Positions 12,101 to 61,507 of a DNA stretch of 64,000 nucleotides are shown one piece after another. The notes beneath the pieces were generated by a model. It was given only the letters and a program-made list of their open reading frames with translations, did no database searches and was not told the origin of the DNA. Source of the stretch: Synchiropus splendidus (lineage: Eukaryota > Chordata > Actinopteri > Syngnathiformes > Callionymidae); NCBI RefSeq assembly GCF_027744825.2, contig NC_071347.1, forward strand, positions 13,825,501-13,889,500, read 5' to 3'. Every line of letters starts with the position of its first letter. Positions within the stretch are counted from its first letter, which is position 1. A program made the translations under genes and the position numbers.

Positions 12101-15100
12101 TCTGTTCGCACACCAGATACCTTGGTGGAGGGGATTGATCCTCTTCTCACAGGTGCTTGGACTGTGATGCTCTCAGTTGGAGATCCAGGCTCAGAGGGAA
12201 GAGTAATGACAACATAAGTTTGCAAACACTTTGCATGCCGAGGAGACACAGGTGACTTTGGAGATGTTGCATTCAATTTGGACTCAACTGGTCGTGTCAG
12301 ACTAAGTGAAAGTGCTTTTGGAGGTTCTTTGGCTCTTGGTAAAGTTGCAGCTTTGTTTACAGTGTATGGTGGCTTAATGGTTTCTCCGGGTTTGTGGCTA
12401 AAAACCAGTCCGGCTGGAATCACAATGGGTTTGGGTGGTATGGGTGGAGGAGGTTTAGCAGCGTGAATTGGGCCAGCTGCACTTACAGCAACTTGCTGCT
12501 TTGTTGTTACAGCGTTTGACCCTGATGTAAGTGATGGAGGTTTTGGATAAACAGCTGGTTTGGCTGGGGATGCCACTGATGCATCAGAAACCTTCATTCC
12601 TGCTTCAGGTTTGTTGTAAATTACTGAAGGGGGTCCAACTGAAGTCTTTGCTATTTGAGCTGCTTTAGTAGGCGCATCACTGGTAGCAACAGGGGCAGGT
12701 TTACTGACTGGGGGTTGAGTAGCCGTGGAATACGTTGATTGTTCCTCTTGTGAACTTTGTCCAACATGAGGTAGAGTTTCAACACTGGATACTATGATTA
12801 CAACATGGCCTTGTCTAGTCGGAGTCACCAACTGCGGCGCAGCCACGAGATCTGACTGTTTATTGTCCATTCTGGGTTGAATATCTACAAATACTGAGCG
12901 CATCTGCTGGTTCGCCACTTTTGCAGCAGATGTGGTTGTTGGTGAAATGTGTTGACTTTGCACAAGTGCTTGTTCCTTAGTAGGCTCAGGCAATGACACT
13001 GAAGTTGAACGTGGTGGAGGAGGAGGCGGAACTTTCTTTTTAATGATTGTAGTGGAAGCTGGAGCAGTTTCCACTTGGACGTCCGATGGAGTCATTGATG
13101 GGGCTGTGGGTTGGACAGGAACTGAATGCACCACTTTGGGTTGGGCACGAAGCTGTTTAGTTATTAGTGTGGACACGGGAATTTGAGCAGAAATGGGAGA
13201 TGTAGTTGAAACAAGGTCAGGCATCTGCACTATAATTGGCCCAGGGCTTGTAGCCGCAGGGGCAGATTGTGTGAGGGAACCTGCAGGTTCTGCAGGAGGA
13301 GGGACACTTGCAACAGATGTTGAGATTCTTTGGTGTGTTGACTGAGTTGAGATGACAGTGGGTGCCGGACTTGGTGCTGAAACTTGTATCACTGCTGGAG
13401 TTGAACTGGGCATTTGGGATTGAGAGGAAACCAAATCAGGCATTTGTACATGAGGCTGCACAGGTACAACTGATTTTCTTTCAATTGTACGAATTGGATC
13501 CTCCTGCACTGCGGATGGTTGAGGTTTGGAGGGCTCATACACAACATCTGGTATGGTCACCACAACTGAGGTTGGACTGAAAGATTCTGGCTCTTCCGTT
13601 ATCGGCACAACAGCACCTTCAGTGGATGCCAACATTTCTGATGGGATTTGACTTGTTAAAGAACTTGGTAGCGTAGGTGTAGACAGAGGAGTTGAATCTG
13701 ATGACAGCGGTGTTTGGGCAGGGAAAGAAGACGATGAAGTGGCATTCGAGGCCAAGCTTGAATCTGGAGTGGCAGGAGACGTTGGTGGTGATGCTGGTGA
13801 CACTGGGGAAGGTGTATTAGTAAGCTCAGGCGCAGATATCGGTGTCGGAATGGGTTTTGGTTCTGGAATTTCACATACCACAGATATTGGTTCAAAGTCA
13901 GTGCTTTTATTTGATGGTTCCTCCTTGGTTTCAGAATCATCGCTGGGTGTAATATCCGAGGAAACACCTACACCATACTCATCTGCAAGACTATCATCCT
14001 CTTCCTCCCCTGATGAACACTGGGTGATTTTAAGGTCTGGTATGGGAAACAGAGCCTTCATAAGTGCAGGATCTTGAGGAACCATTGGCCTAACAAAGCC
14101 TATAGATCCGCTATGCGTAGTGGGCAACACATAGACATCGGGACGTTTGGGAGGTTCCGAAGGTCGTGGGGGAGCTGGTCGTTTCTTTTTCTTAATCTGC
14201 ATTTCACTGGATGCCTCAGTGCCATTAGGAGAGTCCCTTTCCTCTGTAGGCATTACCACAACACAGCTCTCAGCCACCATTTGGGGACCCGAAGAGGTGG
14301 AATCCAACGCTGTCTTTGCTTCCTGAAATTCTTGTTCGATCATCATTAATTCTTTCTTCTTTTGCATCATCTCCTCATAAACCTCTTCTGGGGAACGTAG
14401 TTTTTTCAGATGGTCAGCTGCAGAGTCCTGTTTGAAAGCATCATCTTGAAATTCCTGCGTGTGTTCTGTCTCCTCCACAAGTGACTCATAAAGGTAGTCT
14501 TCAATGGTCATTCCTCCATATAGCGGCTCAATATCTGGAGGGCTTTCACCTGGAATGGCTTTTGACTTCTGTATGATTTCCTCATATGTCTCCTCAGCAC
14601 TTTTCAATGACTTTTTAGACACACTTTCGGACTCAGTTTTGGAAATATTGAAGGGTATAACTGTGGGTGACGGTTTCCGCCCTCGCTGAACTGCTTGCCG
14701 GACATCAGGCTCTGATTCTATACTGGCTGAAAATTCAGAGCCAGATGTTTTTGTAGTGTCATCCATCACCATAACCTCTTTCAAGTCCTCCGTGGAAGAA
14801 TAGTTTTCGTTTGAAGAAAAGGGTTGAGCATATGTTGGTCTTTCACTCTTTTTTGGTTTCTCTTCATCCCTCATCCTCTCATCTTCTGACGAGTCTTCTA
14901 TGGTAGGTAGGGGCTGTGTTTGTTGTCTGTGTTTGCCTTTGCGGTACTGTTTGTCTCCACTGACTTTTTTATGACTGGGACTGCTATCACTGTCCTCCTC
15001 CAGCGATGACGCGGATGTTGGAGATGATCGTGGTGTAAAGCTGGATACATGAACACTTGATGACCCCTTTGATAGGGATTCTGTGATGCTCTCTACTTCT

Positions 15101-18100
15101 TCTTCGGTGCTTTGCCTCTGCCGAAGTGCAGGGATTGCTTTCTTCAAAGTTGGGCTGTGTGCCTCTGAAACTTGAACTTCTGTTTTGAAAGGAGTTGTTG
15201 TCTTGGTTAAATCGCCATCCTCTTCTCTGGCTTCTACTTCAGACTCTGATGTTAGTTTCGTATTATCCAGTTCCACACCCACAATAATGTTGTTACTTTC
15301 CGCATCCTTTTCTTTGTCTTTGTCATCCTCTGAGACAGACATTTCTTCTTCGCCACCCATACCCATTATTTGTTTACGGATAAATTCTTCATCCTCGATA
15401 GAAGAGTCTGCTGATTCAGTTTTCATCTCTTCACTGCTGGATGAAATTCGGCTGACTTGCAGTTTTCTCCTTATGACTTTCGGCGAAGGAGAGGGTGAAA
15501 GCTCGCTTCCACTCGTTTCCTCTACAGCATGGAAACTGAGGCGTCGTTTGTCAGGTTTGTCTTCAGTTTCGACCACACTTGATGCTTTTTCACCATCAAC
15601 TTTAGATAATTCTGTCGTCACATCTGTGACTTTCGTTTCTTCTGGCATGGACAAAATTTGTGATGTCTTGTTCAGTTTAAGTTCTGCCTCATCAGCAAGT
15701 TCTGAATCCTGAGTCACGGTGTCCCGTCCAGTTGGCAAGGCGGTCGCAATTTCTGCGACCAATTTTTCAGCCTTGTTTTGCTCCTGGAATAAGAGAAAAA
15801 AAAACATTGTCATTAATATTAAACCTTCTGTATATTCAAGGGTTTTGCTTTGTGTCTTGAATTTAAAAGAGGAAAAGTTTTTTTTTTTAATCAATAAGCC
15901 ATCTGCTTATCTGCATACCAAGTCAGATACAATCATATGCTTTGATTGTTGAAGGAAAGATTTGTACTTTCTGCCATAAATTGAGCGCGAGGACAAGATG
16001 CTTACTTTTGTCTCCTTATTTGCTGGCGATGGCTCCGCTGGAGTTATGCTGTCAATATCTACAGCAAGGTCACGCTTGATTCCTGTGGACACTTCTGGAG
16101 ATGGCTCTTTCACTACTACGACACTAACATCTGTCCGTGACAATTCTGAATCTCTTGCAGTAGCTGGGCCATCTTTTGGCAGAGTTGCCTCTCGGACTTC
16201 TTCACCCGCATTCCCTACATCAGGCTTGGTTTGAGATTCATTTTCAGGAGTTTTTGACATAACAGTATCTGCGACTTCTGCATGTTCTTTGCTTTCAACA
16301 ATTTCATTCTTGATATCAGGAATGTTTTGAACTCCCCTGTGGAGATCAGTAGCAGCAGGTTTAAGGGTCTCAGTTTGAATCCCTGAGGAGGCTGCTGCAG
16401 CTTCGGTCTTGACAGCTGCTGAGTCAGCTGTTGTCTGTACAATTGGAGCTGTTACTGATGGGGCCGTGGGCTCGGAGGGGGCACTAACAACTTCTGTTTT
16501 CACTGTGCTAATCTGGGGCTCTGGCTTTTTAGTTTGTGGTGAAGGTTGAGACTTATCAATTGGTAGCGCAGGAGAAGGCGTTATTTTCTTTGACTCCCCA
16601 AGATGTCCTGACAGGGCCCGTTGGGTCTGACAATTAAGACACAGCCACTCCTTCTGAAATGCAACAAACAAAAACATGAGTACAATAACAAACTTTCTGT
16701 ATAACGGGCTTATTTTATAGGTGTGATTCAAATGCATCTGGTTGTCAGAGATATTGGAGTGCAACAATCATTTTAACAGAGGGTGAAGTACTGAATGTGG
16801 GATCTATTATAACTGTGTGAGTAGTAGCCAGAATAAATGGCTGAAATGATTTTTGATTCAGTTCCAGAGTGCAAACACAAAATAAGAAGATAATGAATAA
16901 GCAAACTGTTTTATCACTCCATAATTAGTGTCAAAACATTTTGCTTTGCTTTAGTTCTAGAGCCAAACAATAAAGCGGAACAAAAAACACCATCATCATC
17001 ATCATCACTTTTGAAACTATCAAGCATGACGTGCCAAGATGTCACTGTAAAACAAAGGACAAGATGCCATTAGGTTCTCAGAGCGTGGACCTCAGTCAAT
17101 AAGAATTGTAATCTCTTCTTCATTTTCGGCAAATCACCTATCAAGCCATCAAGCTGCCATTATTGAGCCTATTCTCTCTCATAACCACTGTTTTATGGCT
17201 GGAAAAATGAGGCGTCATGGCTGAGTCAAGAGGTGGCATATCTACAGCCAGATTTCTTTTACTAAGGGATGGAACAACTGTCAATGTTTGCAGTATATTC
17301 AACTGAATTTGACTCTAATGGATCTCACATCAAACATCTAAACCTTTCCAGATGTATCCCAATACCTGCCTGTCCTGTTTTTGAAATGATGTTTCAACAT
17401 CAATTACTTTGTAATTAATGCAGCATAACACAATACACATAGTCATGGCTAACATTGTGCATTCACTGCACATGTCCCCATAAGGAAGAATTTATACCAT
17501 CTGTATCTGCCGTGAACCAGGCAGTGAAATCAAAAACATGTGACATGTGAATAACACAGCCCTGATTATACTTTCAAAGGTTACTTTGTTCATTTCTCTC
17601 CCACAATTACATAAAAAATGTATAAAAATAAATAAATATTAAATGTACATATTTTTATTTATTAAAGCTTATAAAACTATTTGAAAAGCTATTTTTTTCA
17701 ACCGCCAGTCAGGTTTTAGTACTTCTTTTGGTGACCTGCAACGGGCATCCAATGTCACAAGGGTTGATATTATTTGCCTGATTTATGCTCTTTATATGAT
17801 ACATGCATCTTCTGTTTGAAACATCCTATAACTCCCTTCGTTTTGTCCTGTCATGCTTTTGCTGACAAAGCATTGTGTTTGCCCTACTTATCAGATAACA
17901 GTCACTCACAGGCTTCTGTTGGCATCAGCTGAAGCACAACAGAGGCAAATAAAAATGGAAAGACTTGCCAAAGGCACTAAGCCATCTGGAGGCCTATCCA
18001 TCTTTTAAAACCTTTATATATAAAATAATGTATTTCTGCTTTCCTGCTAAAAGCCACTTTCTTTTTGAAAAAAAAAAAATAAATAAATAGAAAAATCATC

Positions 18101-21100
18101 ACTGGTCAAAAGGTCGTACAAGCTGCTCATCCCAACCAGATTTGTTCAGACTTTGCTATTGCTCTTTGACTGTTAGAAGGGATAAATCCATCATAAACAC
18201 AGCAGCAATAATCCGTGTTTGTCCCTTCCCCCAACCAATCTCATCCTTTTGGCTCTCTCTCACCCCTCCTGTTTTTCAGAGAAACATGAGAAGTCTGAAT
18301 TACAACAATGGCACAAGCCACTCAGTTTTATTTCCTGTGCTTGTTTGTCATTTGCGTCCAGTCAAGGTGGCCGAACGGCCCTCGGATTGTTTCCCTAGTG
18401 TGCAGGATGGTTAGCTTGATCACATTTTGGGCTGAACTAACTTGAACATACTATTGTATCTTCTGGTTTAAATCACTGTGCAGTCTCAACATTTTCAAAA
18501 ATATAGGTGCCCAGGAAATTGAATGAATGGTGTCTCATGATCTTATACATAGAGTACCATCTAAACAGAGTCATATTTGTTTCAGACATCTTAAGATTCT
18601 TTTGATTTAAATGAAGTGAGACCCAGCACTGCTGTCGCTTGAGTCCCTGTCACCTCAGTTTATTGGCATATCACAGCACTTGGCTATCACAAATCTCTTG
18701 CTGGCAATTCCCTGGTCGCCAGCCTGCTATGACAACAGATCCCATCTCACTAATGCTGTTGCACAACTCTCACATCCAACAATCATTTGAAAACATTGGC
18801 TGTGCTCTGTGATGGCCAGAGCCTTGCTTTATGAGCTGTTATGTAACAAGTGAGAGCATGGTGTGATAGTTTGAACCGGAATCTGCATTTTTGTCACACA
18901 AAATTTGTAGGTAAACTGTACATACCTTTTCTGTCTGTGGCATGGGGTTAAATCCACAGAGATTGCAGACCACATTTTTGCATTCCGTGCAGGTATTGTA
19001 ATTGGGGGGCTCCTTGGAGTCCATGTTGAGCTCAGCTTTACAAAGTGGACAAGAAGCCAGGCCTGCTTTAGGAGCAACAGCTGCCATTGACTTAGGAGGT
19101 CCCGGAACCGGCCCCTCTCCTTTGGTTTCAGAGGTCAGGGGAGCCTTGGGTTGCTGATCAGGTGTTGGTTTCGGTGGCGCAGGTGCTTTAGCCTCTTTAA
19201 CAGGTGTCATTTTGGGAGACACCGGGGCTGATTTCGGCTCGTCCTGTACAGCAGAGCCTATCAAAGATGATGCTGAGCTGAAGATGGAGGACCCAAAACC
19301 AAACATTTTTCCACCCACTGATTCCGCTGATTTTACAGGGGATGCTTGTATTTTAGGTCCTCCAAAGCCAAAGAAACCTCCAGCTTCCTGTTTAGCAGCA
19401 GGAGCAGCTGGTTTGTCTGGAACTTTGGAGGTCATTTGTGGTTTTCCAATTTCTTTCTTTGCTGAATCTGCTTTGGTGTCCGGTTTTGCTGCTTTTGCAG
19501 TTGGTGGTTGAGGTTTAATGGCAGGCGTTTCCTGAGGTTTCACTTGGGCAGTCCGAGGTGGGGCCTCAGCTTTTTCCTTAGGTGCTGCTTGCAATGGCTC
19601 ACGCTTCACTGCACCTTCAGCTGAGGGCCTAGATGGAGCTACTTCCTTTATCAATTCCTTGGACTTCTCTTCTCCTCGTGTCTCAGACACCATGGCAGAA
19701 GGAACCTTGTTAGGGGAGGACTGGGGTTTCAATCCAGGAGGTCCACCAGGTTCAGAAGCTCCAAGGGCTCTCTGCATCTGACAGTTCAGACAAAGCCATT
19801 CTTTTGCCTAGAAAGAAAAAGACACAGTCATGAGTCGAGATCAAGTATCAATGCAGCATACCTCATGAAGTCTTGAAGGAATTCAATTTGAGGTACCCAA
19901 TCACAGGTTTTCATAGTAATTGAAATAGCTGTGCATTTTTGATGAGATGAGAATTTACCTCCGTCAAATTGGGCACAGGATTAAATCCACACTGACTGCA
20001 GACAGTGGTTTTGCACTCAGTGCAAGTGCTGTAGTTAGGTACATCTTTGGAGTTCACATTGAGCTCGGTCTTGCAGAGCGGACAGACACAAGGCGCTTTG
20101 CTTGCTGTCATCTGTGGTGGCTTTGAAGCAGCTTTGTCCACTTTATCTTGCGTTAATGAGGTTGAACTTTCTTTCTGCTGTTTCTCAGATTTCTCTTCTT
20201 CAGTTTTGAGGACAGCTGACGCCTTGGTGTCTTTCGCAGGTGTCGGTTTTGGAGAGCTCGGTGGTGTCGTTTTAGGAGACACCTGATATGTAGTGGACAT
20301 CTTCCGTGGAGTCGGGGGCGTTGTTTTAGGCTCGTCCTGCACAGCTGAAGTTATTAAAGTTGAGGCAGAGCTTAAGAAAGAAGAGCCAAAGCCAAAGACT
20401 TTGCCTGTCACTGACTCGCTTGCTGTTTTGGGCTGTGTCTTGGGGCTACCAAACCCAAAGAAACCTCCTGACTCCTGTTTGACGGGCTGGTCTGGTGGAG
20501 GTGTGGGTTTGACTGGCTGAGTGGGTGTTTGTTTGGCTTTTTGAGGGGTCGGTACTGTTTTGTCTGAAGTAGGTGCAGGAGTAATGACATTCTGTTCCAG
20601 TGGCTGCAGAGCCGCTGGTTGCTCCTTCGTTTTTGCATCCACATCTGAGGTCTTTTGTGACACACTTGGTGCAGCCATTTTCTTGACAGGCTGCGAAACA
20701 GTTTTGTCAGTCAATGTGGCGGCTGCCTCAATAGATTTTTTTCTTAACGCGACTATTCCTTGGGTTTCTTTTTTGACAGTGGCATCAGAAATAGACTCAA
20801 TTTTGGATATGTCTGGCTGCATGGCAACTTCCTGTTGGGACGGTTTAGCTGTCTCCTGCAAGGGTTGAGCCTTCTCTTTGCTTGGGGAAGGTTTCATCAT
20901 GGGAAGACCGAGTGGCTCAGAAGCCCCAAGAGCTCTCTGCATCTGGCAGTTCAGACAAAGCCATTCTTTCCCCTGAAAGACAAAGTGCAAAGAAAAATAT
21001 TAATTACAATAATTCAGATGTATTTAAGTGAATAGAACCTCTTGAAAGTACTGGGTTACAGAGAGTCACTAAAACAGGTTTTGTCCCAGATTTTATGGGA

Positions 21101-24100
21101 AACACAAACCTCTGAATTTAGATAATCAAAACATGAGTATTCCATTACAGCAGCAATGTGATGTCACTTTGCAAAGTAGAAGAAGATTTTTTTACAAAGC
21201 AACAAGGAGACAATTCTAATGATTACCTCCAACTTTGATGGCATGGGGCTGAAACCACATTTGTTGCACACTGTGTTTTTGCATTCAGTGCAAGTGTTGT
21301 GATTGGATGGATCCTTGCCGCCAATGTTAAGTTCCACTTTGCAGAGAGGACATGAAGATATTTTGGGAAGAGCTTCAGGTGCCTTCGGTTTCTCAGGCTC
21401 TGGCATGCTCTCTTTCTTCGGCTCAGGTGGAGGAGGAGCCTTGGCTTTCTGAGTTATTTCTGCTGGCTTGTCGGTTTTAGTAATGGATGCCATTTTTGTC
21501 AAACTTGGTTTTGGAGATACAGGAGGGCTGGCCTTAGCAGAAATTGTCTTTTTATCAGAAACTTGTGCAGGGGCAGACATTTTCCGGGATCCTGGCAGTG
21601 TTTTGCGGGATTCCTCTTGAACTGCTGATGTAATCAAAGTGGATGCAGAGCTGAAGATGGATGAACCAAATCCCATCATTTTTCCTGTCACAGATTCGGT
21701 AGTGAAAGCATTTTGAGGAGCTTTATCACTTCCTGAACTTTGGATTCCTCCTGCTTCCTGAACAGCAGCCTGTGCTTTTGAGGTAGTCGATGGGGCAACT
21801 GAGGTCTTTGTCGCGTTTAAGTCTTCATGGGGGTCTTTTTGAAGCGCCACTTTTTCTGCATTTTCGGTTACTTTTATGTTCTCAGCCCTGCGGGGAGTTG
21901 CCGGAGAAGGATCCTTTTTCTCTTCTTCAATTGCTCTATTTGGTGGAGGAAAGTTGGAAATCATTTCTTTTTGATTTTCTTTGTCTGTGGGCTTAGCTGA
22001 GCTCAAACCCTTCTGGGTTGGTAGTGTATCTGTCTTCTTCTCCTCTGCTTCCTTTGAAAGTTGCAAGACCTGGGAAGCTGTCTTGGGAAGATCTTTCTGC
22101 ATGGAGGGTTTGTTTGTTTCTGAAAAAGTTTCTTTAATCTTGTCACTGGGAAGATCCACATCACTCACAGGAGATTTTCGGTTGGATTGCTCTTGGGGTT
22201 TTGTCATTTGGGGCTCCGCTGCCTCTGCTGCTATGCGAGCTTGTTCCACCTGACAGGTCAGACACAACCAATCCGCCTGTAAAAAGAAAATATGTTTCAC
22301 TGTTATGATGCTACCAAGACACATAATGACAGTCACCAAAAACACTATGATTGATTTGTCACCTAAAATGCTGCATTTGTTATAGCCAAAGTGCACACAA
22401 AGAACACACACTAGAAACAGCAGTAATGGTGAGGTCACACTTAAAAAGGAATTTAAATATTTTAGTCTCATCACCATGAATAACAATACAATGTTCTTAA
22501 CTTGCATGTGCATATTAAGAAACTGAAGGAAGAATGCCCAACACTAACAGTGATCCAGGGAGCCTAAAAAGCTCTTTTAGGATAAAAAGGTGATGTGTGT
22601 TGAATTTAAATATTTTTGCAAGGGAGTACATATAAGTACATTAGCATAAGTTGTTACAAGAAAGTGGCTTACCGTTGTGATGTTTGGCGTAGGATTAAAT
22701 CCACACTGGTTACAGACATCAATCTTGCATTTTGTGCAGGTACTGTAGTTAGGTGTGTCTTTAGCACCAACTATGAGCTGAACTTTGCAGAGCGGGCAGT
22801 GTGATTGGCCTGGTTTGGCAGCAGCTTCCAATGGTTTTGTATATTTTGGAACTTCGGCAGTTACTTTGGCTCCCACTTGAGAAGGTTCTGTTGATTTCTG
22901 ATTAGGTTCTTTTTGGTTTTGCAACTTCTGCATGGAGGGGGACTTGGCTTCTTTTGCTGGCGACATCTTGGGAGAAACTGGCGGAGTTGTCTTGGGCTGC
23001 TCCTGAACTGCCGTGGTAATGAGAGTGGATGCAGAGTTTAAGAAAGAAGAGCCAAAGCCAAACATTTTTCCTGTCACAGACTCAGATGTGTTTGCAGGAG
23101 TAGTTGGACTTTTCCCACCTCCGAATCCAAAAAATCCTCCTGTATCCTGGGGTTTGTCAGCGTCTTTCTTTGCCAGTGTTTGTCCGGTCTTTTGAGGAGA
23201 CTTGTTAGGATCTGTAGGTTTCCTGACTCCCTCAGAAGTTTTCTCAGCTGGAACTGGACTGATTGGTTTAACATCGTTCTGCTTTTGGTCCTTCTCTGTC
23301 ACAGTTGGCTTTGCTTTCTCCTGGGTTTTCTGTGGGGACTGTGGCGCCGACACCTCTTTCTTCAGTGGAGGACCTGGACTGATAGCACCCTTTTCAGGTG
23401 GTTTCTCAGTTTTGACGGGTAAACCTTTGACGGTTTCTGTCTCCTTTTGAGCTCGCTGCACCTGGCAGGTGAGACACAGCCACTCCTTCATCTGGAAATC
23501 AAGAACAAATAGCCATCTTTCAGTTTAAATTCAGATTTCAAATTTTCAGTTTTCAAATTTCATTTTTTGTTCATCCGTCCCCACTTTAGCTACAACGTTA
23601 GCAATAAAAGCTTGTATACATTATTCTATATTAGCACTGCGGCAATTGCACTGTAAACAATGAAAGAAAGATTTAAATCTCACCCCTGAGTCATTTGGCA
23701 TGGGGTTAAATCCACACTGGTTGCAAACCGTTTTCTTGCATTCCGTGCATGTGCTGAAGTTGGGTTGATCCTTGGACCCCACATTGAGAACGTCATTGCA
23801 AAGGGGACAGATTTTCCCGCTTGGTTTGGCAGCTATCAGACCAGACTTTTCAACTATTGGTGCTTCTGATGGACCTTTAGCCATGACGGCCTCTCCTGCT
23901 GGAATAACCTTCTTCTGCGGGGTTGGATCCACTTTCTTCAGTGGCTCAGCCTTTTGAGTAGAAGATGCTTTGGGGTCTTTTGAAGGTGACATCTTTGGGG
24001 AAACAGTTGGACTCGTCTTGGTCTGGTCCTGGACAGCCGTTGTTATCAGTGTGGATGCAGAACTGAATAGAGAAGAACCAAATCCAAACATTTTTCCAGT

Positions 24101-27100
24101 GACTGATTCTGCATTTTTTTCTGCTGGTTTTGAGCGAGGGGAACCATCGGGTTGGGCATTGCTGAGCTTGCGCCCAGACTGGCTTATCTCATCTGCTGTT
24201 TTCTTTTGACTATCTGGAGGTATTTTCTCAAGCTGTTGCTTGTCACTTTTGGCTGGAAGAGGTTTGTCAGATGGCTTGGAGACTGTTTCCGTGACGATCT
24301 TCTTTTGTTCGGCAGGGATGGAGACATCTTTCTTTGGAGATGAAGGTGGTTTGGAAGTATCCTTTAACTCGCCTGTGGTAGATGACGGAATTTTATTTAA
24401 TGCCTGGGGCTTTACTGATGCAGGGGCTGGTGGCTCTGAGGCAGTGGTGGCTCTCTTAACTTGGCAGTTCAGACAAAGCCATTCTGTTACCTGAAAAAAC
24501 AAACCTCAGTTAAACATACCATTTGAAAACTCAATGACTGCTTGCGGTAAATGTGCCAGATGTTAGCAATAGGCTTTATTTTGTTGTAAATATTTGTCAA
24601 TTACTTTTTATGCCCTAACCAGAGTTGAAGAAACCCAAATGCGGACCTCGTGAACAGAACTACAAAATTGTACGTTTTTCATCATTCAGTACTTTTCGAA
24701 TACTTTATAGTAGGGATGCACTGAACATTCGGTTGAATAGGGTATAAAATCGATGACTGTAAAAGAATGTGTAAAATCTGGCAACACAATCCTCCTGCCT
24801 GAGTCTGATAAAAATATAAAAATAAAAGTCAAAACTATTTATTTAAGTAATAATTTTCTTTGACAAACATGTATATAAATTACATTGAATATCCAGTATT
24901 ATTATTATAAGCATTTTAAATTTCACTTGACTTTGGTCTCACATTTTCAATCCAAACTATTCATTTTTTGGGTGTTCCGGTTTCCATTTTTAAATGGGAT
25001 TTTTCCAATGTTTGATGCTCATTTGAACAGTATTTTTTGCCCTAACAAATACCAAGTACCAATAATTAAAAATAATTTTTAAAAATGCAGTGAAAAAAAG
25101 TGCTTAATTTTTATTGCCTTATAGAATTTCCATTTAATAACATATAGGAATCATATAGTCATTTTGCTATTCAATATTCATTTTTTTCTTTCACTTGGCT
25201 TAGACTTGTCTCACTATATAATGTGGCTGCTTAAGGAACTTAATTGCCCACCCCTATTCAGGCGTAGTATATCACTTTTTTTAGAGACATCTTAGAAGCA
25301 ACTGTTATATTTGGTCTCTTAACTTGAGGAATGTTTTGTGCAAACTTGTCAAGGCAATATCAACAAAGCTCATAGCTGCTTCCAACATTTCATGTTTCGA
25401 GTGATACTATAGTCAAACATCAACAACTGACCACACTTTGACAGCACCTCATATAAAATCAAGAATAGCTTACCGATGTGTTGTTCGGCATGGGGTTGAA
25501 TCCACACTGGTTACAAACAGTACTTTTGCATTCAGTGCACATGCTATAGTTAGGAGGGTCCTTGGAGCCTATGTTAAGTGCATCCTTGCAAAGTGGGCAT
25601 TTTTCCATGCCTGGTTTTGCTCCCTGAGTAGCTGTCCCAGCTTTCAGTGGTTCACCTGCCACTTTTTTTCCTTTCTCATCTCCTGTAGGCGGCGACTTTG
25701 TCTGTACTGGTTTCATCGGTTGGTCGACCTTTTGGGTGTCCTGTACCTTGGCTTCTTTGAAGGGGGAAGCTTTGGGTGAAACTGGTGGGGTTGTCTTTGG
25801 CTGATCCTGCACAGCAGAGGAGATCAGCGTAGACGCAGAGCTGAATATGGAGGAGCCAAATCCAAACATCTTCCCAGTAACTGACTCTGCAGGCTTCTCT
25901 GCCGCTTGTGGAGGTTTGGAGGCGCCTCGATGAGGAGAGGTGTCGGCCTCTTGTTTAGCTGTGGCGCTACTCAGCTTACGTCCGGTCTGGCTCGCCCCCT
26001 CTTGACCTTTCTTTTGGGTTTCTTGCCGTACTTTCTCAGGTTGTTGGTTGTCAACTTTCAGCGGCAATGAGGAGACACCAGCTTGATCTGATGGTGCTGC
26101 TTTTGGCAATGTTGAGGCAGTTTCAGTGGCGGCCTTCTTTTGTTCAGCAGAGACAGTGTTTTCTTTCTTCTCAGACGCAGTTGGCTTGGAAGTATCCTGA
26201 GCAGGTAACCCAGCCTGGGACTTGATTTTGGCAGGGAGCGGGGGCTCCGGCGCTGCAGAGGCCCGTTTAACCTGACAGTTCAGACAGAGCCACTCTTTCA
26301 CCTAAAAAAGATTGAGCCACACTTTAATTTATTTTCTCAATATTGCACATGAAGACACAGGGCACAACATTTTTCACAGCTCAAAGATTAGATCTAGAAC
26401 TGCATTTCTACATACCTCTCCCACAGGCATCGGACTGAATCCACACTGATCACAGACGACGGTCTTGCAGTCAGTACAGGTGCTATAGTTTTTCTTGTCT
26501 TTTGAGCCAATGTTCAGCTTTATATTGCAGAGAGGGCAGACATCTTGACCTGCTTTTTTAGCTGCGGTTCCCTTTGAAGTTTGAGTTTTTTCTACGTCTT
26601 CTTTCTTCAAGTTTTCAGTGTGAGAAGATGATTTTGTCGCACCTGTCGGCAACATTTTTGGTGAAGCCGTGGGTGTACTTTTGGGGGAAATCTTTGGGGA
26701 GACCTGAACTGGTGCCGACATCTTCCGTGAGCCGGGAGGTGTTGTGCGGGATTCCTCCTGAACCGCATTGGATATTAAGGTTGATGCCGAACTGAAAATG
26801 GAAGATCCAAAACCAAACATCTTGCCGCTTATGGATTCTGTTGTTTTCGAGGGTTCTACTTTGGGGACAGACGCGACCCCGGTTTCCTTCTTGGTGTCGG
26901 TTGAAGACACAGTTGCTTTTTGTTCTGTTTGCTTTACCTTCTCTGCTGGTTTTTGATCCTCTGTAATGTGTTGATTCTCCTGAGAAGACTTCTGACCAGG
27001 TGTTTGTTTGGGTTGGTCTTTCACCTGTGACTCTTTCGCCGAGTCAGATACCTGTTTGACACTAGAGGCTGGTAGCTTCTGTGGGGATCCAGCAGTTGAA

Positions 27101-30100
27101 AGCTCATTCTTTGAGTCAACGCTCACTTTCTGGGATGCAGATGGGGACTTTGTTGGCGGCTTTATGGGTTCCGGTTGTGCCAGTGTTCTTTGCACCTGGC
27201 AGTTGAGACATAACCATTCTTTTATCTGAAAAAAAAAACAAGTTAATATGTTAACAACCCTTTCTTCAATACACTCATGATTAAATGCTTCTCACCTCGG
27301 ATGAATCTGGCTTTGGATTAAATCCACATTGGTTGCAAACAGTGCTTTTGCATTCAGTGCACTTGCTGTAATTTGGAGGGTCCTTAGAGCCAATGTTGAG
27401 CCCCACTTTACAGAGAGGACAGGTAGAAGGTCCGGCCTTGTGTGCTACACCCTTTGGAGGTCCTGCTTCGTCTTTAGACACAGGCTGTTCCACATTTTTC
27501 TCTGGCTGTTTCTTCTGAGCAAGAGGTGATTTACTCACGTTTGTGGCTGCAGTCTTGGGAGAAGGTGGAGGTGTTGTTTTGGACTCATCCTGGACAGCGG
27601 AACTTATTAAAGTAGATGCTGAACTGAATATGGAGGAACCAAAACCAAACATTTTTCCACCAAGTGATTCACTTTGTTGTCCAGTTCCAGGTTTATTTGA
27701 TGCATCTGGTGGCTTCTGTGGAGCTGTTTTCTGTTGATCTTGTGGTTTCTTTGGACCTGAAGGACTTCTCTCCCTTGTTGCTGTCGGCGGTGCTTGTGGA
27801 GTGTCAGACTTTGTAGGCTGCCCGGCTGGTGTTGATGGCTTTCTCTGAGGTGAGGCAGGTGAGCTGCCTTGTGTTTGATGCTCTTTCATCTGGGATTTGA
27901 TAATAGTTTCCTTCTGTGAAGACTGAGAACCTTTGTTTGGAGATGCCTGGGGTTTCATCATTGGGGTGCCTGGTGGCTCTGATGCTCCAAGTGCTCTCTT
28001 CATTTGGCAATTAAGACACAACCACACTTTTGCCTGAATAAAAAAAACACAATTAAATGAATATCATGTTTAAATCACCATGTAAATACTACAATTTCAT
28101 GTACCATTACCTCCTTATCATTTGGCATGGGATTAAATCCACATTGGTTGCAGACTACACTTTTACACTCAGTACATGTGTTGTAGTTTGGAGGAGCTTT
28201 AGATGACATGTCGAGTTGTAGTTTACACAGCGGACATGTTTTCCCTCCACCTTTGGGGGCCGATGGGGCAGGCGGTGTCTGCTGGCCTGGTGGTTTCCCT
28301 GGCTCAACTGACTTCTGTTTCTGAATATTGTCCGGTTTCTTGTCCTCCCCTGAATTTAATGCAGCTGGTATTTTTGGAGATCCGTGCGGCGTAGTTTTAG
28401 GCTCATCTTGAGTTGCTGAGGAAATCATTGTCGATGCAGAGCTGAATATGGATGAGCCAAATCCAAACATCTTGCCGGTGACGGATTCTGCAGGCTTTGC
28501 CGCTTCCGTTTGTCTTTTTGGGCTACCAAAACTGAAGAATCCTCCTGATTCTTGTGGTTGCGAGGGATTTGAGTCCTTTCTAGCTGGGGCATTGTTCTGC
28601 TCCGCTTTTTTCTGAGCATCTGTCTTCTGGCCCACCTGAGGTGATTTAGGACCAGCAGATGCCAGCTCACTTTTTCCTTGAGTGGCTTCTCCTTTAGCTG
28701 GTGGTGCTCCAGCTGTCTGTACTTTCCTCTGAGGGGACCCCGGCGTTGACGTCTTTTGCGGAGTTGGCTGTTGTGGAGGCGTCTTTGTTAATGGTGTTTT
28801 GTCTTTGGGTGGTTCAATCCCAGCAGTTGCACGTTTCACCTGGCAGTTTAGACAAAGCCACTCCTTTCCCTGACATACACAAAGAGAGGTGTATTAGTCT
28901 TTTGCTGTACAAAAATTGAGTACAAATAGTTAATTTGTATTTGTTTTGTAATTTAACAGAACATTTAATAGATTTTTATGAGTGTTTAGTGTCTGGAATG
29001 CAGGCAGTTAGATTTGGAGACTCAATTCCAAACTGAAGCAGCTTTCACAGGCATTATGCTAAACAAGTTAAAAAGAATCTCAAGTGTTGTCGGCATTCAG
29101 GCCAACTAAATGTGCATTGAATTACAGTGTCAAGTGTCGCCGGCTACTTTTTTCCCCACCACAAATGCAGGACTATTGACCTTGTAGTCCCAATCCATTA
29201 TCTGGCTTTTTCCTCATCATGAAGGCAAGTCTGGCAGAAACGCATCTTCTTTTTGTTATTTAAATGAATGTGGTTAATGGACAGTTCACATCGAAGCACT
29301 TTAGGATGCAAATTTTACACATGAGCCTTGTTAAACTTGCTTTAACTGCCAGGTTTAACTTCTACTACAGAATATGTGGCCACCGTGACTATAAATAATT
29401 AGGAACACAAAATAACAGCTGAAAAAACTATTAAAATTGCTTTAATGAAATTGCAGTTTTGAGGACTGAATGCAGCATTTAAATAATGACAGAAACTATC
29501 TTCTGTATTTTTGCTTTTGCAACACAACCAGTGCTGCAATCATGAGTCATGGTTCTATATTTCATACGATCTGTGACGCAGATTTATCATTCGGTTTTTG
29601 AAAGGCTCTTACCTCTTTCACATTTGGCATGGGGTTAAATCCACACTGGTTGCAGACAGTACTTCTGCATTCTGTGCACACACTGTAGTTGGGCGGGTCC
29701 TTTGAGCCTGTGTTGAGTGCAATCTTGCAGAGGGGACAAGTGGATTGGCTGGTTTTGGGGGATTTTTGTGAAGCTGGCACTGTCGTAGAGAGCTGCTCTT
29801 TTTTCTTGCCGGGTTCTGACACTGCTGCAGGATGCGCTTTGGTCACAGGTTGCTTGGGAGACAGTGGGGGTGTGGTTTTCGGCTCATCCTGAACAGCCGA
29901 GGATATCAAGGTAGAGGCAGAGCTGAAAATTGACGAACCAAAGCCGAACATTTTCCCTGTTACTGACTCCTCTGCTTTCGAAGTGTCTGTTTTCGAACTG
30001 CCAAACCCAAATAATCCTCCAGTAGACGTGGCACCGCTTTGCTTATTTCCAGGTAGATTGCTTTGATCTTGCTTCTGAGGAACTGATGTTTTTCGAGTTT

Positions 30101-33100
30101 CCTGCGGGCTTTTCTGAGGAGGTGCCTGACCGGCCTGCTTTAGATTCTGCGGCCCCTTAGCTGCTCCATCCACGGGAGGCATGGCTGAAGCTGGGGGCTT
30201 CTTCTGTGGCGAACCTGATGTCGGCGTCTCCTTTTTGACACCCGAGGCGGGAGATGGTGTTTGAGAAGGGGTTGGCTTTTTCACTGGAGGTCCTTGTGGT
30301 TCCGAAGTTCCTTGGGCTCTTTTTACCTGGCATGTCAGACAAAGCCACTCGCGTCCCTAGGAAGAATGGGAGGGAAAGAAATTACAAACACACACAACAA
30401 AATTTGACTGTGAATTCTTTTGAGATTTACTACTAGTACCTAGATCATGATATATTTAGAGAGTGGGAAATTATGCCACTTTTTTCGGGATACACACACT
30501 AACTAAATCATGATTCACTGTGTTTGTTTAGTCAGAATCATAGCTGCTTTACAAGCCACAAATATTGCATTGATTTTGTAGTGTATGAATGAGGGTGCTT
30601 CGTCCCTGCAGGTCATTTGTAACAGACATATGGAAGGTCCACTCTTTAGATATCAGCAAATACACAGTGCAACGTCACACTTGACGCATCGTGAAATGTA
30701 CAGCCTGAACGCGCTATCTTCCGGTTATAATTAGTCTGTGTGTAGATTTTTGCTCTGTGAATGACACCTAAATAAAACCTGTGCTACCAGAGCGACAAAC
30801 AGGATGAGCCCTTTGAACACCAGACAAAAGTGCTTTAGCAAATTCTAATGTAGGACTGGAGTTAAAGAGAATGCAGCGTATTAAAGTAGGAGACTAGTTT
30901 TGATTTGGAGACGTTGAAACTAATCGAAATGTTACTCCCAGATAGTCTGGGTTCTCTTTTCTATTTCCTAAAAACATCTCTTAATTCAAAACAATGTGAT
31001 TACTTCTGTGTTTTTATGGACCATGTGAGGAAACCCAAGTCCACAGAGCATGGTGAACACATTGATCCTGATTATATACATGTGATTTACAACAGACGAA
31101 GACTGAGGGGGTTGAGCACAAGGTGGAAGGCTTTTTTAAACCTGATCGTCTTTCACTTCCTCCAATGAGTCCGGGAATTGCTCCAGCAACCCATTACCAC
31201 GAGAGCGTCTCAACAGCTCTATACTTTTTCCGCCTCCCGTTTTCACTTTCAAATCTGATGTCATCAAATTTAGCAGTGCTGATGTACAAAATGCATATGA
31301 ATAATTATATTTATTATTATTAGATCAGATGTCCTAATAACAATCTATAATCTCTTCCCTTTTTTCCGATTTTATAAGTTTGCTCAGGACAGGATCAGAG
31401 GAAAGAACAGGCATGAATAGAAAGTGTCATTTCTGTTCCTGTTTTCCGGATCCCACAGCCGATTCCTATGTGTTCCACCTATCGAAGTTGGAAAAGAACA
31501 TAGTGATGTCCACGAAAACTATTGGGCAAGTCACACGTGCCTCATCCAGTAATAAGCAACCTCTTAAAAAATATGTGCTCCATTTGCAACAAGAAAATCC
31601 CCTGTTTACGGTTGGGGAAGCCATCTTGGGTGGTGAAGATTCTCCCACTCCCAAGTGGCATTCCTCCATCCACAGGAATGTACCTGAAGTAACATTTGGG
31701 AAAATAACTGCTCTTTTTGTTTGATTGATACGATGAACTAATGATCCCGAATATTAATTTATCTGGCTGTATGTTCAAAAGGCACCCAATAAGACTAAGC
31801 AAACAGAAAACTCGCACCCTTTCTTTAGACCTCAGCAGGAGCACTCAAATATTTCTTGCAGAAATGTCAGACAAATGAAATTAATTCCTGCATCATGAAA
31901 CACCCCAGGTCAATTATTTGTGCAAGAAATCCCAAAATGCCACATTACATTTCGGCATCACAATTTTTATAATGATAATCTACAGGAGAGAATCGTGTCA
32001 GACACATTTGCAAGCCACTGAAAGCGACAGTGCCACAGTTTATCGCCCAAATAACCAAAATTCAAAACGATCATCAAACTCCATGCTGAGAAAAAGATAG
32101 AAGCAATCATACTTACATCTGAGTCTGGAGGACTGAAGCCACATAAGCTGCACACTTGAGTTTTACAGGCTGTACAGTTTTTATAGTTGGGCTGCTCCTT
32201 GGTGTGTATATTGAGTTCTGTTGTGGTGCACACGGGGCAAAGGGATTTGGATGCTGCTTTTGTTGACTGAGGTGCATTTTTGGTTGGTCCTGGTGACGAC
32301 GACCCTGCCCGAGCCAAGTCAGGTGTTTTCGGCTGAGTTCTGAGACCCTGTTGCTGTGGCCCTGTCTTTGCTGAAGCCTGTTGTGGCGCTTTCGGTGACC
32401 CTGGTTGTGGCTGCCCTGCTGTTGGTGATGCTTTTTGTGAGCTTTTAGGATCAACCTGTATTGACCCCGACACTCCAGTCCTTAGGTTCCCCTGCTTCGG
32501 CGAGGCCTGTGGCTGAGCTCTGGATTGAAGCTGTGGTGCTTGCTGCTGTGGCCCCTTCGGCTGAGTTTTAGGTGACTCACCCCTTCCTTCTGAAGGCGCC
32601 TTTGGGGCAGCATGCTGCTCGCCAGGTTTGTGCAAAGATGCTGCCTGACCGTTCCCTTGCAGCTGTGGCGAGGGTGACCCCTCTTTAGGAGCAGGCTGGC
32701 TCCTCTGGTTTGGTTCCTGACTTGGTTTCTGGGCTCCTTTCTGCTGCACCGGGGCTTTAGCATCTCCCTGCTGTTTTGGATTTTTGTCCCCCTCACCGTC
32801 ATCTCCGAACAAGCCAAATTTATTGACTGCCGAGGACACTGCATTGAGTGGGTTGGCCCCACTCAGAAATTTGGAGGAGAACATATCCGGATCCTCCTCC
32901 TCGTCTTCTTCCTCCTCCTCCTCTTCCTCCTCCTCCTCCTCCTCCTCCTCACAGGAGCTAGAATCTACACTTGTGTCCGAGTCAGAGCAGGAGTCTTGTA
33001 TTCTGTCTCGTCTTTCTCCTGGCTCTCTTGTGGAGGCCTGAGGGGGGGTTGGGGCTGGAGCTGTAGAGGGGGCATCTACAGCCCCACTGGTTCTGCTACT

Positions 33101-33164
33101 GCTGCTGCTGCTGCTGCTGCTACTCCCTGGGCTCTCTTCAGGCTCGGCGTCCACATCAGACTTC
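19..33164 (-). CDS. pclo: Piccolo (presynaptic active-zone scaffold), partial gene: 20 exons seen, both ends missing
   Basis: Piccolo organises the cytomatrix of the presynaptic active zone; its fingers bind PRA1 and its coiled-coil and PDZ regions bind other active-zone proteins (family knowledge). In the window, in order of transcription, are a Ser/Glu/Gln/Pro-rich N-terminal exon with the first half-finger (32117-33164), ten repeated finger exons (18926-30356), an exon closing the last finger (16006-16653), a 6.3 kb exon (9486-15783), a coiled-coil exon (7619-9153), three conserved central exons (7277-7542, 6120-6948, 4345-5395), and four exons leading into and through the PDZ domain (1341-1429, 1196-1271, 996-1121, 19-127). 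All junctions have GT-AG signals and consistent phases, giving about 6,800 open residues. The C2 exons lie left of the window; the exon with the start codon was not found. The ten finger exons are unusual: mammals have one. Whether this is the pcloa or pclob teleost copy cannot be told. Confidence 0.95.
128..995 (-). other. pclo intron within the PDZ coding region
   Basis: This 868-bp intron separates the two PDZ half-exons. I see no gene, repeat or RNA in it. Confidence 0.85.
996..1121 (-). CDS. pclo: pclo exon: N-terminal half of PDZ domain
   Basis: Encodes [34 protein letters not shown], which contains the PDZ carboxylate-binding loop (GLGI) and matches the family very closely. Acceptor CTACAG, donor GTACGC. 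The end is phase 1, and joins GAA-G to GA-ATG of the next exon. Confidence 0.93.
1196..1271 (-). CDS. pclo: pclo exon leading into PDZ domain
   Basis: Encodes [21 protein letters not shown] then TSVSG, the strand just before the PDZ loop (human has YIFPHARIKITRDSKDHTVSG). Acceptor TTCCCAG, donor GTATGA; the 3' end is phase 1 and restores VSGNGLG with the next exon. Confidence 0.9.
1341..1429 (-). CDS. pclo: pclo exon upstream of PDZ domain
   Basis: Encodes [20 protein letters not shown] then [26 protein letters not shown] is diagnostic of Piccolo. Acceptor ACTAG, donor GTGAAC. The first codon is split with the exon at 4345-5395 (SDSE-A-YHLRRE). Confidence 0.92.
1430..4344 (-). other. pclo intron (2.9 kb) with one hAT-like MITE
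   Basis: AT-rich intron with no open frame resembling a known protein. It holds MITE copy A (1856-2091). The minus-strand open frame at about 2659-2997 has no recognisable features and is treated as chance. Confidence 0.8.
1856..2091. mobile_element. hAT-like MITE, copy A
   Basis: Ends resemble TAGTGATG...CATCCCTA, and the flanks CTTAATAG (1848-1855) and CTTAACAG (2092-2099) match at seven of eight bases, an 8-bp target duplication typical of hAT elements. Subterminal GTTTCATGAAAC-type motifs are shared with the other copies. No coding capacity. Confidence 0.75.
4345..5395 (-). CDS. pclo: pclo exon: conserved region between coiled coil and PDZ
   Basis: Encodes about 350 residues starting [19 protein letters not shown]. 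Motifs nearly invariant in Piccolo include [80 protein letters not shown] and [20 protein letters not shown]. Acceptor TTTAG, donor GTAAAT. The start is phase 0 after GAG of the upstream exon; the end is phase 1 (SDSE-G). Confidence 0.94.
5396..6119 (-). other. pclo intron with a repeat copy
   Basis: 724-bp intron. It has a short (TA)n near 5571-5585 and a repeat at about 5675-5930 whose ends resemble TAAGCCGC and GTCTTATAGTCTGGAAATTA, a layout common in fish non-autonomous DNA elements. No coding signal. Confidence 0.7.
5675..5930. repeat. Dispersed repeat, copy 1 (TAAGCCGC type)
   Basis: Shares GTAGAAAGGTCAGTGGTGCA, AAAATGCATG and GTTTTGAAAACGG in the same order with 41240-41690. The right end, GTCTTATAGTCTGGAAATTA, roughly mirrors the left TAAGCCGC end. 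Likely a decayed non-autonomous DNA transposon. Confidence 0.6.
6120..6948 (-). CDS. pclo: pclo exon: end of coiled coil and Tyr/Gln-rich region
   Basis: Starts [20 protein letters not shown], continuing the coiled coil of the neighbouring exon, then YMSDSEVS, a Tyr/Gln/Thr/Ser-rich stretch ([20 protein letters not shown]), and [20 protein letters not shown] followed by [12 protein letters not shown]. All match the order in mammalian Piccolo. Acceptor GTGTAG; donor GTAAAC after RRTAE. The codon CG-G across the intron restores LRYLEMG. Confidence 0.94.
6949..7276 (-). other. pclo intron, 328 bp
   Basis: Intron between the two coiled-coil exons; nothing else seen. Confidence 0.85.
7277..7542 (-). 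CDS. pclo: pclo exon: start of the conserved coiled coil
   Basis: Encodes [20 protein letters not shown], then [40 protein letters not shown] and KLR. This highly charged heptad-like region is part of the Piccolo/Bassoon homology core. Acceptor ATCATAG, donor GTAAGA, 266 bp; it ends in phase 2 and rejoins as LR-YLEMG. It has no standalone start codon, being purely internal. Confidence 0.92.
7619..9153 (-). CDS. pclo: pclo exon: long coiled coil and QT-motif region
   Basis: About 512 residues. It opens [19 protein letters not shown], then [20 protein letters not shown] and [12 protein letters not shown] (conserved). A coiled coil rich in Glu/Gln follows, including [20 protein letters not shown] and a Gln-rich stretch ending [15 protein letters not shown]. 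The C-terminal part carries repeated xQT motifs: [29 protein letters not shown] and SLSCQTDLD. Acceptor ATGCAG, donor GTGAGT. Start phase 1 (G-GT), end phase 0. This region of Piccolo/Bassoon anchors active-zone complexes; the QT motifs resemble dynein-light-chain sites mapped in Bassoon (inference here). Confidence 0.94.
9154..9485 (-). other. pclo intron, 332 bp
   Basis: Short intron between the giant exon and the coiled-coil exon. Open frames here are read-through of the flanking exons. Confidence 0.85.
9486..15783 (-). CDS. pclo: pclo giant exon, about 2,099 residues
   Basis: A single 6,298-bp exon encoding a low-complexity Ser/Thr/Pro/Val-rich segment with islands of strong conservation. 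N-terminal part: acidic/Ser-rich with [36 protein letters not shown] and [11 protein letters not shown]. Middle: [20 protein letters not shown] and [41 protein letters not shown] and [17 protein letters not shown]-terminal part: [20 protein letters not shown] then FTRSCR, and [13 protein letters not shown]. All occur in this order in mammalian Piccolo. Acceptor TTCCAG (exon starts GAG CAA AAC), donor GTATGT; starts phase 0, ends phase 1. The Val/Pro/Thr-rich stretch of about 900 residues in the middle is poorly conserved and longer than I recall for mammals. Confidence 0.95.
16006..16653 (-). CDS. pclo: pclo exon closing the last (11th) zinc finger
   Basis: Begins [20 protein letters not shown], supplying the last C-x2-C pair of the final finger; QTQRA.SG.LG is the signature after the second finger of mammals, so this exon corresponds to the ancestral post-finger-2 exon. 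The rest (216 codons total) is a Pro/Ser/Thr/Lys/Glu-rich linker ending NKETK. Acceptor TTTCAG, donor GTAAGC, both phase 0. Unlike the ten upstream copies it has no FGFG motif and no half-finger at its 3' end. Confidence 0.94.
16654..18925 (-). other. pclo intron (2.3 kb) after the finger array
   Basis: AT-rich intron. It contains a short (CAT)n run near 16990-17005 and A-rich runs. No gene or repeat with clear ends is seen. Confidence 0.75.
18926..19807 (-). CDS. pclo: pclo finger exon Z10 (tenth tandem copy)
   Basis: 294 codons, phase 0 at both ends. Starts [20 protein letters not shown] (closing finger 10), has [10 protein letters not shown] then [20 protein letters not shown] and [13 protein letters not shown], and ends with the six-Cys half [36 protein letters not shown] that opens finger 11. 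CNLCGFNP is the form seen in the second mammalian finger, so this copy keeps the ancestral 3' end. Acceptor TTCTAG, donor GTATGT. Confidence 0.94.
19959..20972 (-). CDS. pclo: pclo finger exon Z9
   Basis: 338 codons, phase 0-0. Starts [20 protein letters not shown], carries [10 protein letters not shown], then [19 protein letters not shown] and [12 protein letters not shown], and ends with [13 protein letters not shown]...[16 protein letters not shown]. All eight Cys of the fingers it contributes to are present. Acceptor TTTCAG, donor GTAAAT. Confidence 0.94.
21227..22276 (-). CDS. pclo: pclo finger exon Z8
   Basis: 350 codons, the longest copy, phase 0-0. Starts [20 protein letters not shown], lacking the Glu before Trp and using VEQAR where other copies have K/QRA. 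It has [19 protein letters not shown] (FGFG reduced to MGFG), [13 protein letters not shown], and ends [13 protein letters not shown]...[16 protein letters not shown]. Zinc ligands are intact. Acceptor TTACAG, donor GTAATC. Confidence 0.93.
22277..22672 (-). other. pclo intron between Z7 and Z8
   Basis: 396-bp intron; an open frame runs through from Z8 into it, but the acceptor TTTTTACAG directly before the WLCLTC motif fixes the exon edge. Nothing else seen. Confidence 0.8.
22673..23491 (-). CDS. pclo: pclo finger exon Z7
   Basis: 273 codons, phase 0-0. Starts [19 protein letters not shown], has [49 protein letters not shown], and ends [13 protein letters not shown]...[16 protein letters not shown]. 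Acceptor TTCCAG, donor GTAAGC. The leading ATG is a coincidence of the exon start, not a translation start. Confidence 0.94.
23684..24490 (-). CDS. pclo: pclo finger exon Z6
   Basis: 269 codons, phase 0-0. Starts [20 protein letters not shown], has [19 protein letters not shown] and [13 protein letters not shown], and ends [13 protein letters not shown]...[16 protein letters not shown]. It lacks the GGFFGFG motif present upstream of SVTGK in some copies. Its start closely resembles Z5 (QVKRA.A.EPP.PA). Acceptor TTTCAG, donor GTGAGA. Confidence 0.94.
24491..25473 (-). other. pclo intron between Z5 and Z6, 983 bp
   Basis: Longest intron within the 3' part of the finger array, very AT-rich. A stretch beginning TAGGGATGCACTGAACATTC near 24712 looks like the end of a fish hAT-type element, but I could not identify a matching second end. 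Confidence 0.6.
25474..26301 (-). CDS. pclo: pclo finger exon Z5
   Basis: 276 codons, phase 0-0. Starts [20 protein letters not shown], has [19 protein letters not shown] and [20 protein letters not shown], and ends [13 protein letters not shown]...[16 protein letters not shown]. Acceptor TTTTAG, donor GTAAGC. Confidence 0.94.
26416..27225 (-). CDS. pclo: pclo finger exon Z4
   Basis: 270 codons, phase 0-0. Starts [20 protein letters not shown], has [19 protein letters not shown] and [15 protein letters not shown], and ends [20 protein letters not shown] then [16 protein letters not shown]. The RKMSAPxQVS block is shared with Z8 but not with its neighbours Z3 and Z5. Acceptor TTTCAG, donor GTATGT. 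Confidence 0.94.
27296..28033 (-). CDS. pclo: pclo finger exon Z3
   Basis: 246 codons, phase 0-0. Starts [20 protein letters not shown] (Val replaces the usual Glu before Trp), has [19 protein letters not shown] and ends [13 protein letters not shown]...[16 protein letters not shown]. Its opening ([15 protein letters not shown]) resembles Z9 and Z10. Introns on both sides are only 70 and 77 bp. Acceptor ATTCAG, donor GTGAGA. Confidence 0.94.
28111..28869 (-). CDS. pclo: pclo finger exon Z2
   Basis: 253 codons, phase 0-0. Starts [20 protein letters not shown], has [29 protein letters not shown], and ends [13 protein letters not shown]...[16 protein letters not shown]. Acceptor TGTCAG, donor GTAATG. 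Confidence 0.94.
28870..29612 (-). other. pclo intron between Z1 and Z2, 743 bp
   Basis: AT-rich intron; no gene or repeat identified. Confidence 0.8.
29613..30356 (-). CDS. pclo: pclo finger exon Z1 (first tandem copy)
   Basis: 248 codons, phase 0-0. Starts [20 protein letters not shown], which closes the first finger. It has [29 protein letters not shown] and [15 protein letters not shown], and ends [13 protein letters not shown]...[16 protein letters not shown]. Acceptor TCCTAG, donor GTAAGA. Confidence 0.94.
30357..32116 (-). other. pclo intron, 1.8 kb
   Basis: Intron between the N-terminal exon and the finger array. A plus-strand open frame at 31380-31724 (114 codons) has no recognised family feature and is regarded as chance. 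No other structure seen. Confidence 0.75.
32117..33164 (-). CDS. pclo: pclo N-terminal exon with first half-finger
   Basis: Starts (x)[13 protein letters not shown], so it begins inside a codon and an upstream exon must exist. A run of ten Ser, a Ser/Asp cluster ([12 protein letters not shown]) and an acidic run of about 20 Glu/Asp follow. Then comes [20 protein letters not shown], matching NPLSAVSSVVNKF of mammalian Piccolo, a Gln/Pro/Lys-rich region (the Q domain in mammals), and [15 protein letters not shown]...[16 protein letters not shown], which opens finger 1. The extra residue in CTTTEL marks it as orthologous to mammalian finger 1. Acceptor CTTCCAG, donor GTAAGT, 3' end phase 0. Confidence 0.94.
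32902..32954 (-). repeat. Coding GAG/GAA triplet tract (poly-Glu)
   Basis: On the plus strand this is a near-pure CTC/TCC run. On the coding strand it encodes about 15 consecutive Glu followed by D-E-E-E-D. Length variation between alleles is likely for such a tract. Confidence 0.85.
33092..33123 (-). repeat. Coding AGC/AGT triplet tract (poly-Ser)
   Basis: A (CTG)n-type run on the plus strand encodes ten Ser near the start of this pclo exon. Confidence 0.8.

Positions 33165-50811: not shown

Positions 50812-61507
<10,696 letters not shown>

Follow-up and report, generated by a model that had tools for sequence, protein, structure and literature searches.

Piccolo b of the fish Synchiropus splendidus carries ten tandem copies of its central zinc-finger exon, each with a predicted ALPS motif

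A 64,000-nucleotide window of the 583-Mb Synchiropus splendidus genome (contig NC_071347.1, here C14, positions 13,825,501–13,889,500) contains, on its minus strand between 33164 and 16006, an array of zinc-finger exons belonging to the piccolo b gene (pclob) of teleost fish, with ten copies of the central exon. Coordinates, phases and splice sites of the array were read directly from the DNA. The N-terminal exon (32117–33164), identified by its splice sites, open frame and zf-piccolo match, has the three opening CxxC pairs of finger 1 at its end, and is followed by ten homologous internal exons, termed central exons, at 29613–30356, 28111–28869, 27296–28033, 26416–27225, 25474–26301, 23684–24490, 22673–23491, 21227–22276, 19959–20972 and 18926–19807, which together encode 2,817 amino acids free of stops. 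The closing exon (16006–16653), identified by its splice sites and open frame, completes finger 11 with its last CxxC pair and adds a tail.

All ten central exons are of phase 0-0, with an AG acceptor before and a GT donor after, both falling between codons. At the 5' end, two or three residues precede WLCxxC, the last cysteine pair of a finger, while the 3' end opens the following finger with its first three pairs, CPLC...CTxC...VCxxCGF. When concatenated in order, the exons yield 11 fingers of eight cysteines each, all of which matched zf-piccolo (PF05715) and, more weakly, FYVE_2 (E up to 0.1); the FYVE_2 score of one finger was 20.1 bits, below the cut-off of 27.2. In nine of the 11, opening and closing parts both derive from central exons, an internal-to-internal pairing absent from two-finger proteins. 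An earlier note, made from the letters of this DNA, had proposed eleven fingers built from ten homologous in-frame exons, and the splice sites, phases, 11 × 8 cysteines and PF05715 matches confirm this structure. The start exon of the gene was not located: mammalian Piccolo begins MGN, and no ATG-Gly-Asn start was found upstream in the window (33165–64000, minus strand). Among the eleven introns the longest is intron 11 (2,272 nt), intron 1 being about 1,760 nt; teleost pclob has a very large intron following the last central exon (Nonet 2012, PMC3484663).

The note's assignment to Piccolo also held. The gene is Piccolo and not Bassoon, because PDZ and C2 frames follow, domains that Bassoon lacks (Nonet 2012, PMC3484663). 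An open frame at 973–1161 (minus strand) encodes the first part of a PDZ domain (PF00595, 24.2 bits, cut-off 23.2); the frame at 15–167, read as the second part, gave no PDZ match. Outside the window, on the contig and strand that carry the array, are two C2 frames scoring 25.9 and 30.6 bits in a direct scan (cut-off 22). Both exons were absent among the matches listed (part of 153) from a genome-wide C2 family search in which 150 of 294 candidates were scored, and the direct scan is the one we trust. Two further minus-strand frames, delimited stop to stop, contain the large Piccolo exon (9364–15906; 2,180 codons, likely acceptor before 15783, exact ends approximate) and the coiled-coil exon (7586–9448), the latter with 56% identity over 254 amino acids to the genome's second Piccolo.

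That second Piccolo (C4) and two Bassoons (C6 and C18) each have two opening and two closing finger parts, corresponding to one internal exon and two fingers apiece. Left out of these counts were two C6 regular-expression matches, 'close' (WLCCVC) at 13344226 and 'alps' at 13341059, which lie in non-coding frames with the motif context absent. The ten copies group together as a clade, with the central exon of the other Piccolo outside it (support 90.8/93); this, together with the three paralogues, bears out amplification of the internal finger exon. Its placement in the fish lineage also held up. The non-teleosts examined by Nonet (mouse, coelacanth, lizard and frog) have a single central exon (PMC3484663), which answers the concern that the same ten copies might occur in all vertebrates. 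The novelty implied by the note did not survive: amplification of the pclob central exon is already known and has been in print since 2012, when exactly such a gene was described. In all teleosts examined there, one piccolo and both bassoons are two-finger genes, and amplification has given piccolo b 8 to 16 copies of its central exon (Nonet 2012, G3 2:1325–39, PMC3484663). As a separate observation, the central exon of the C18 Bassoon (C18:8114771–8116537) encodes 587 amino acids, against 264 in its C6 partner, and contains a QPYGQN-like tandem repeat along with long Gln-rich stretches.

To assess age and constraint, the copies were compared with one another. In the core, the proportion of synonymous differences (pS) averaged 0.77, where 0.88 is the expectation for independent codons, and the median nonsynonymous proportion (pN) was 0.14. 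The mean Kimura two-parameter (K2P) distance of 0.72 falls inside the range of 0.676–0.839 reported for teleosts other than cod, obtained with a different distance measure (Nonet 2012, PMC3484663). Synonymous sites are near-saturated, yet cysteines and central motif have been retained, indicating purifying selection on the copies, and a single ancestral central exon gave rise to the ten tandem copies long ago. The array introns show no mutual similarity. Tandem repeats are common sites of assembly error, and the note had raised a mis-assembled repeat as a danger; nothing specific supports a collapsed or falsely expanded repeat, or pseudo-exons, and the dissimilar introns and near-saturated synonymous change beside conserved cysteines and central motif make this explanation hardly credible.

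The same conservation bears on whether the extra copies do anything. Similar exon ends could promote unequal crossover, with harmful copies purged and the remainder adding no function, so that the array would be a by-product of genome mechanics. This fits Nonet's model, in which selection for similar exon ends drove the amplification, as well as the spread from 8 to 16 copies among teleosts (PMC3484663) and the freely variable linker lengths within our central exons. Percomorphs descend from a nine-repeat state by single-exon gains and losses (Nonet 2012, PMC3484663), and because each exon is of phase 0-0 with a finger part at both ends, copies can be gained or lost with frame and fingers intact. 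Against a mere by-product, every copy has kept all its cysteines and its central motif, a pattern that could also arise if only broken copies do harm. We regard this explanation as rather unlikely.

Whether the array is used in full was considered using published zebrafish data. The zebrafish copies are all in frame 0, and RT-PCR over exon pairs together with RNA-seq indicate that all 15 are used, no full-length cDNA having been made (Nonet 2012, PMC3484663); this speaks against transcripts restricted to two fingers, the remaining worry of the note. A different arrangement would have the ten exons serve as alternative cassettes, each transcript taking one or a few and encoding ordinary two- or few-finger isoforms. 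Any subset of ten phase 0-0 exons would preserve the frame and whole fingers, and some evidence of exon skipping is mentioned for a number of zebrafish tissue samples (Nonet 2012, PMC3484663). RNA-seq of zebrafish heads, however, showed roughly equal abundance for the junctions between neighbouring exons, and the sole skipping seen by PCR, that of the 14th exon, gave a minor product (Nonet 2012, PMC3484663), evidence which, coming from zebrafish, leaves the cassette arrangement improbable for this gene. Each copy spliced to the next would build a whole finger, with all ten exons spliced in. We consider it very probable that the locus is pclob with a ten-copy array whose copies are all included, a confidence that applies mainly to gene, structure and splicing. 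Gene structure, homology, paralogue counts and constraint were computed here, while transcript use (zebrafish) and ALPS binding (mouse) are taken from the papers cited.

Midway in each pclob central exon, between two linkers, lies a 22-residue inter-finger (IZF) motif (Nonet 2012, PMC3484663), a Ser/Thr-rich stretch with bulky hydrophobic residues, which is intact in 10/10 central exons here. These copies have hydrophobic moments of 0.37–0.40, one charge in 18 residues and 8–9 S/T/G residues of 18; the corresponding mouse peptide, with letters from Gierke et al. 2026 (PMC13394108), has a moment of 0.45. The IZF moment was reached by 2.8–4.3% of shuffles, making the motif mildly amphipathic. 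In mouse Piccolino, the ALPS binds vesicle-like liposomes, and its first prediction in Piccolo is credited to Drin et al. 2007 (Gierke et al. 2026, PMC13394108). Judged by sequence, the IZF of each copy is the motif shown as ALPS in mouse Piccolino, and pclob is predicted to multiply it tenfold. Among the papers listed by our searches of the open-licence PMC literature this equation was not found, and it may be stated elsewhere. The available text of Nonet 2012 (PMC3484663) lacks the words 'amphipathic', 'ALPS', 'lipid packing' and 'curvature'; that of Gierke et al. 2026 (PMC13394108) lacks 'teleost', 'Nonet' and 'tandem' and has 'zebrafish' twice; and a 2016 Bassoon/Piccolo review (PMC4709825) lacks 'teleost', 'Nonet' and 'amphipathic'. 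In the central exon of the other Piccolo (C4:884558–885511), the motif is split and duplicated, with ESVTGKLFGGLGG occurring twice, followed by a separate FGSSLLSSATTLVT piece. The pieces have moments of 0.32–0.40, and the interruption agrees with pcloa, in which the IZF motif is broken up by duplicated sequence (Nonet 2012, PMC3484663).

The amplified unit thus carries a motif whose mouse counterpart binds vesicle-like membranes, which makes its role directly testable. In the mechanism we propose, the long N-terminal arm would act as a multivalent tether, combining ten weak ALPS contacts with eleven rabphilin/RIM-like fingers for Rab- or PRA1-type partners, and would hold synaptic vesicles at the active zone or ribbon. 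Multivalent tethering in fish has in our estimate about an even chance of being correct. More tentatively, the teleost Piccolos may have split vesicle binding, the pclob ALPS array (ten-fold here, 8–16-fold elsewhere) catching vesicles by avidity and the interrupted ALPS of pcloa perhaps being weakened; the weakening is the least supported part, since the pieces retain the moments given above. The range of 8 to 16 copies among fish, together with a paralogue whose motif is interrupted, provides ready-made dose points for vesicle tethering. If the proposal is true, the pclob genes of different species would form a natural valency series, informing how many weak lipid contacts a synaptic vesicle tether needs. 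Irrespective of this, the locus is a clear and independently recovered example of domain amplification through a single exon, confined to one member of a duplicated gene pair; the three paralogues without amplification serve as internal controls.

The neighbourhood of the two Piccolo genes was also examined. Upstream of the array gene on C14, semaphorin-like matches of one exon each were detected on the minus strand at 13.881, 13.922 and 14.003 Mb, the last with 39% identity and a TGA within the matched stretch; one match lies upstream of the other Piccolo (C4, 0.864 Mb, plus strand). In teleosts, the promoter side of pclob is flanked by three semaphorin 3 genes, and pcloa has one beside it (Nonet 2012, PMC3484663), a pattern that these matches reproduce at the level of the semaphorin family; GRM3 upstream and TSPAN11 are the respective additional markers (Nonet 2012, PMC3484663). 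Within the window, upstream of Piccolo, exons of a semaphorin-type gene occupy 50812–51342 and 55195–55626 (minus strand), with a Sema domain (81 bits) and, just below its cut-off, an Ig-like stretch. Separately, ten of 28 semaphorin-exon matches fall within about 87 kb at C13:7371301–7458041, five of them with internal stops, and this cluster looks like a tandem semaphorin-related array.

The closest known system is teleost pclob itself (Nonet 2012, PMC3484663), with which the array gene shares frame-0 tandem central exons, the last CxxC pair at the 5' end and three at the 3' end, a mid-exon IZF, the PDZ and two C2 domains, three upstream semaphorins, and the company of a two-finger pcloa and Bassoons in the same genome. 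Mammalian Piccolo and Piccolino have the same inter-finger peptide (mouse VTGKLFGFGASIFSQASNLIST, PMC13394108), but the mouse protein has one motif copy and two fingers, compared with ten copies here. The Bassoons on C6 and C18 resemble the array gene in finger type, exon layout and the presence of one IZF-like motif, and differ in their single central exon and two fingers. Like the array fingers, the FYVE_2 fingers of rabphilin-3A and RIM are built of cysteine pairs and close with WLCxxC. The rabphilin-3A finger is also the closest solved structure by sequence (PDB 1zbd), a weak match (E 0.0054, or 0.0071 with whole exons), and rabphilin contacts Rab3 through helices beside its finger, as summarized by Nonet (PMC3484663).
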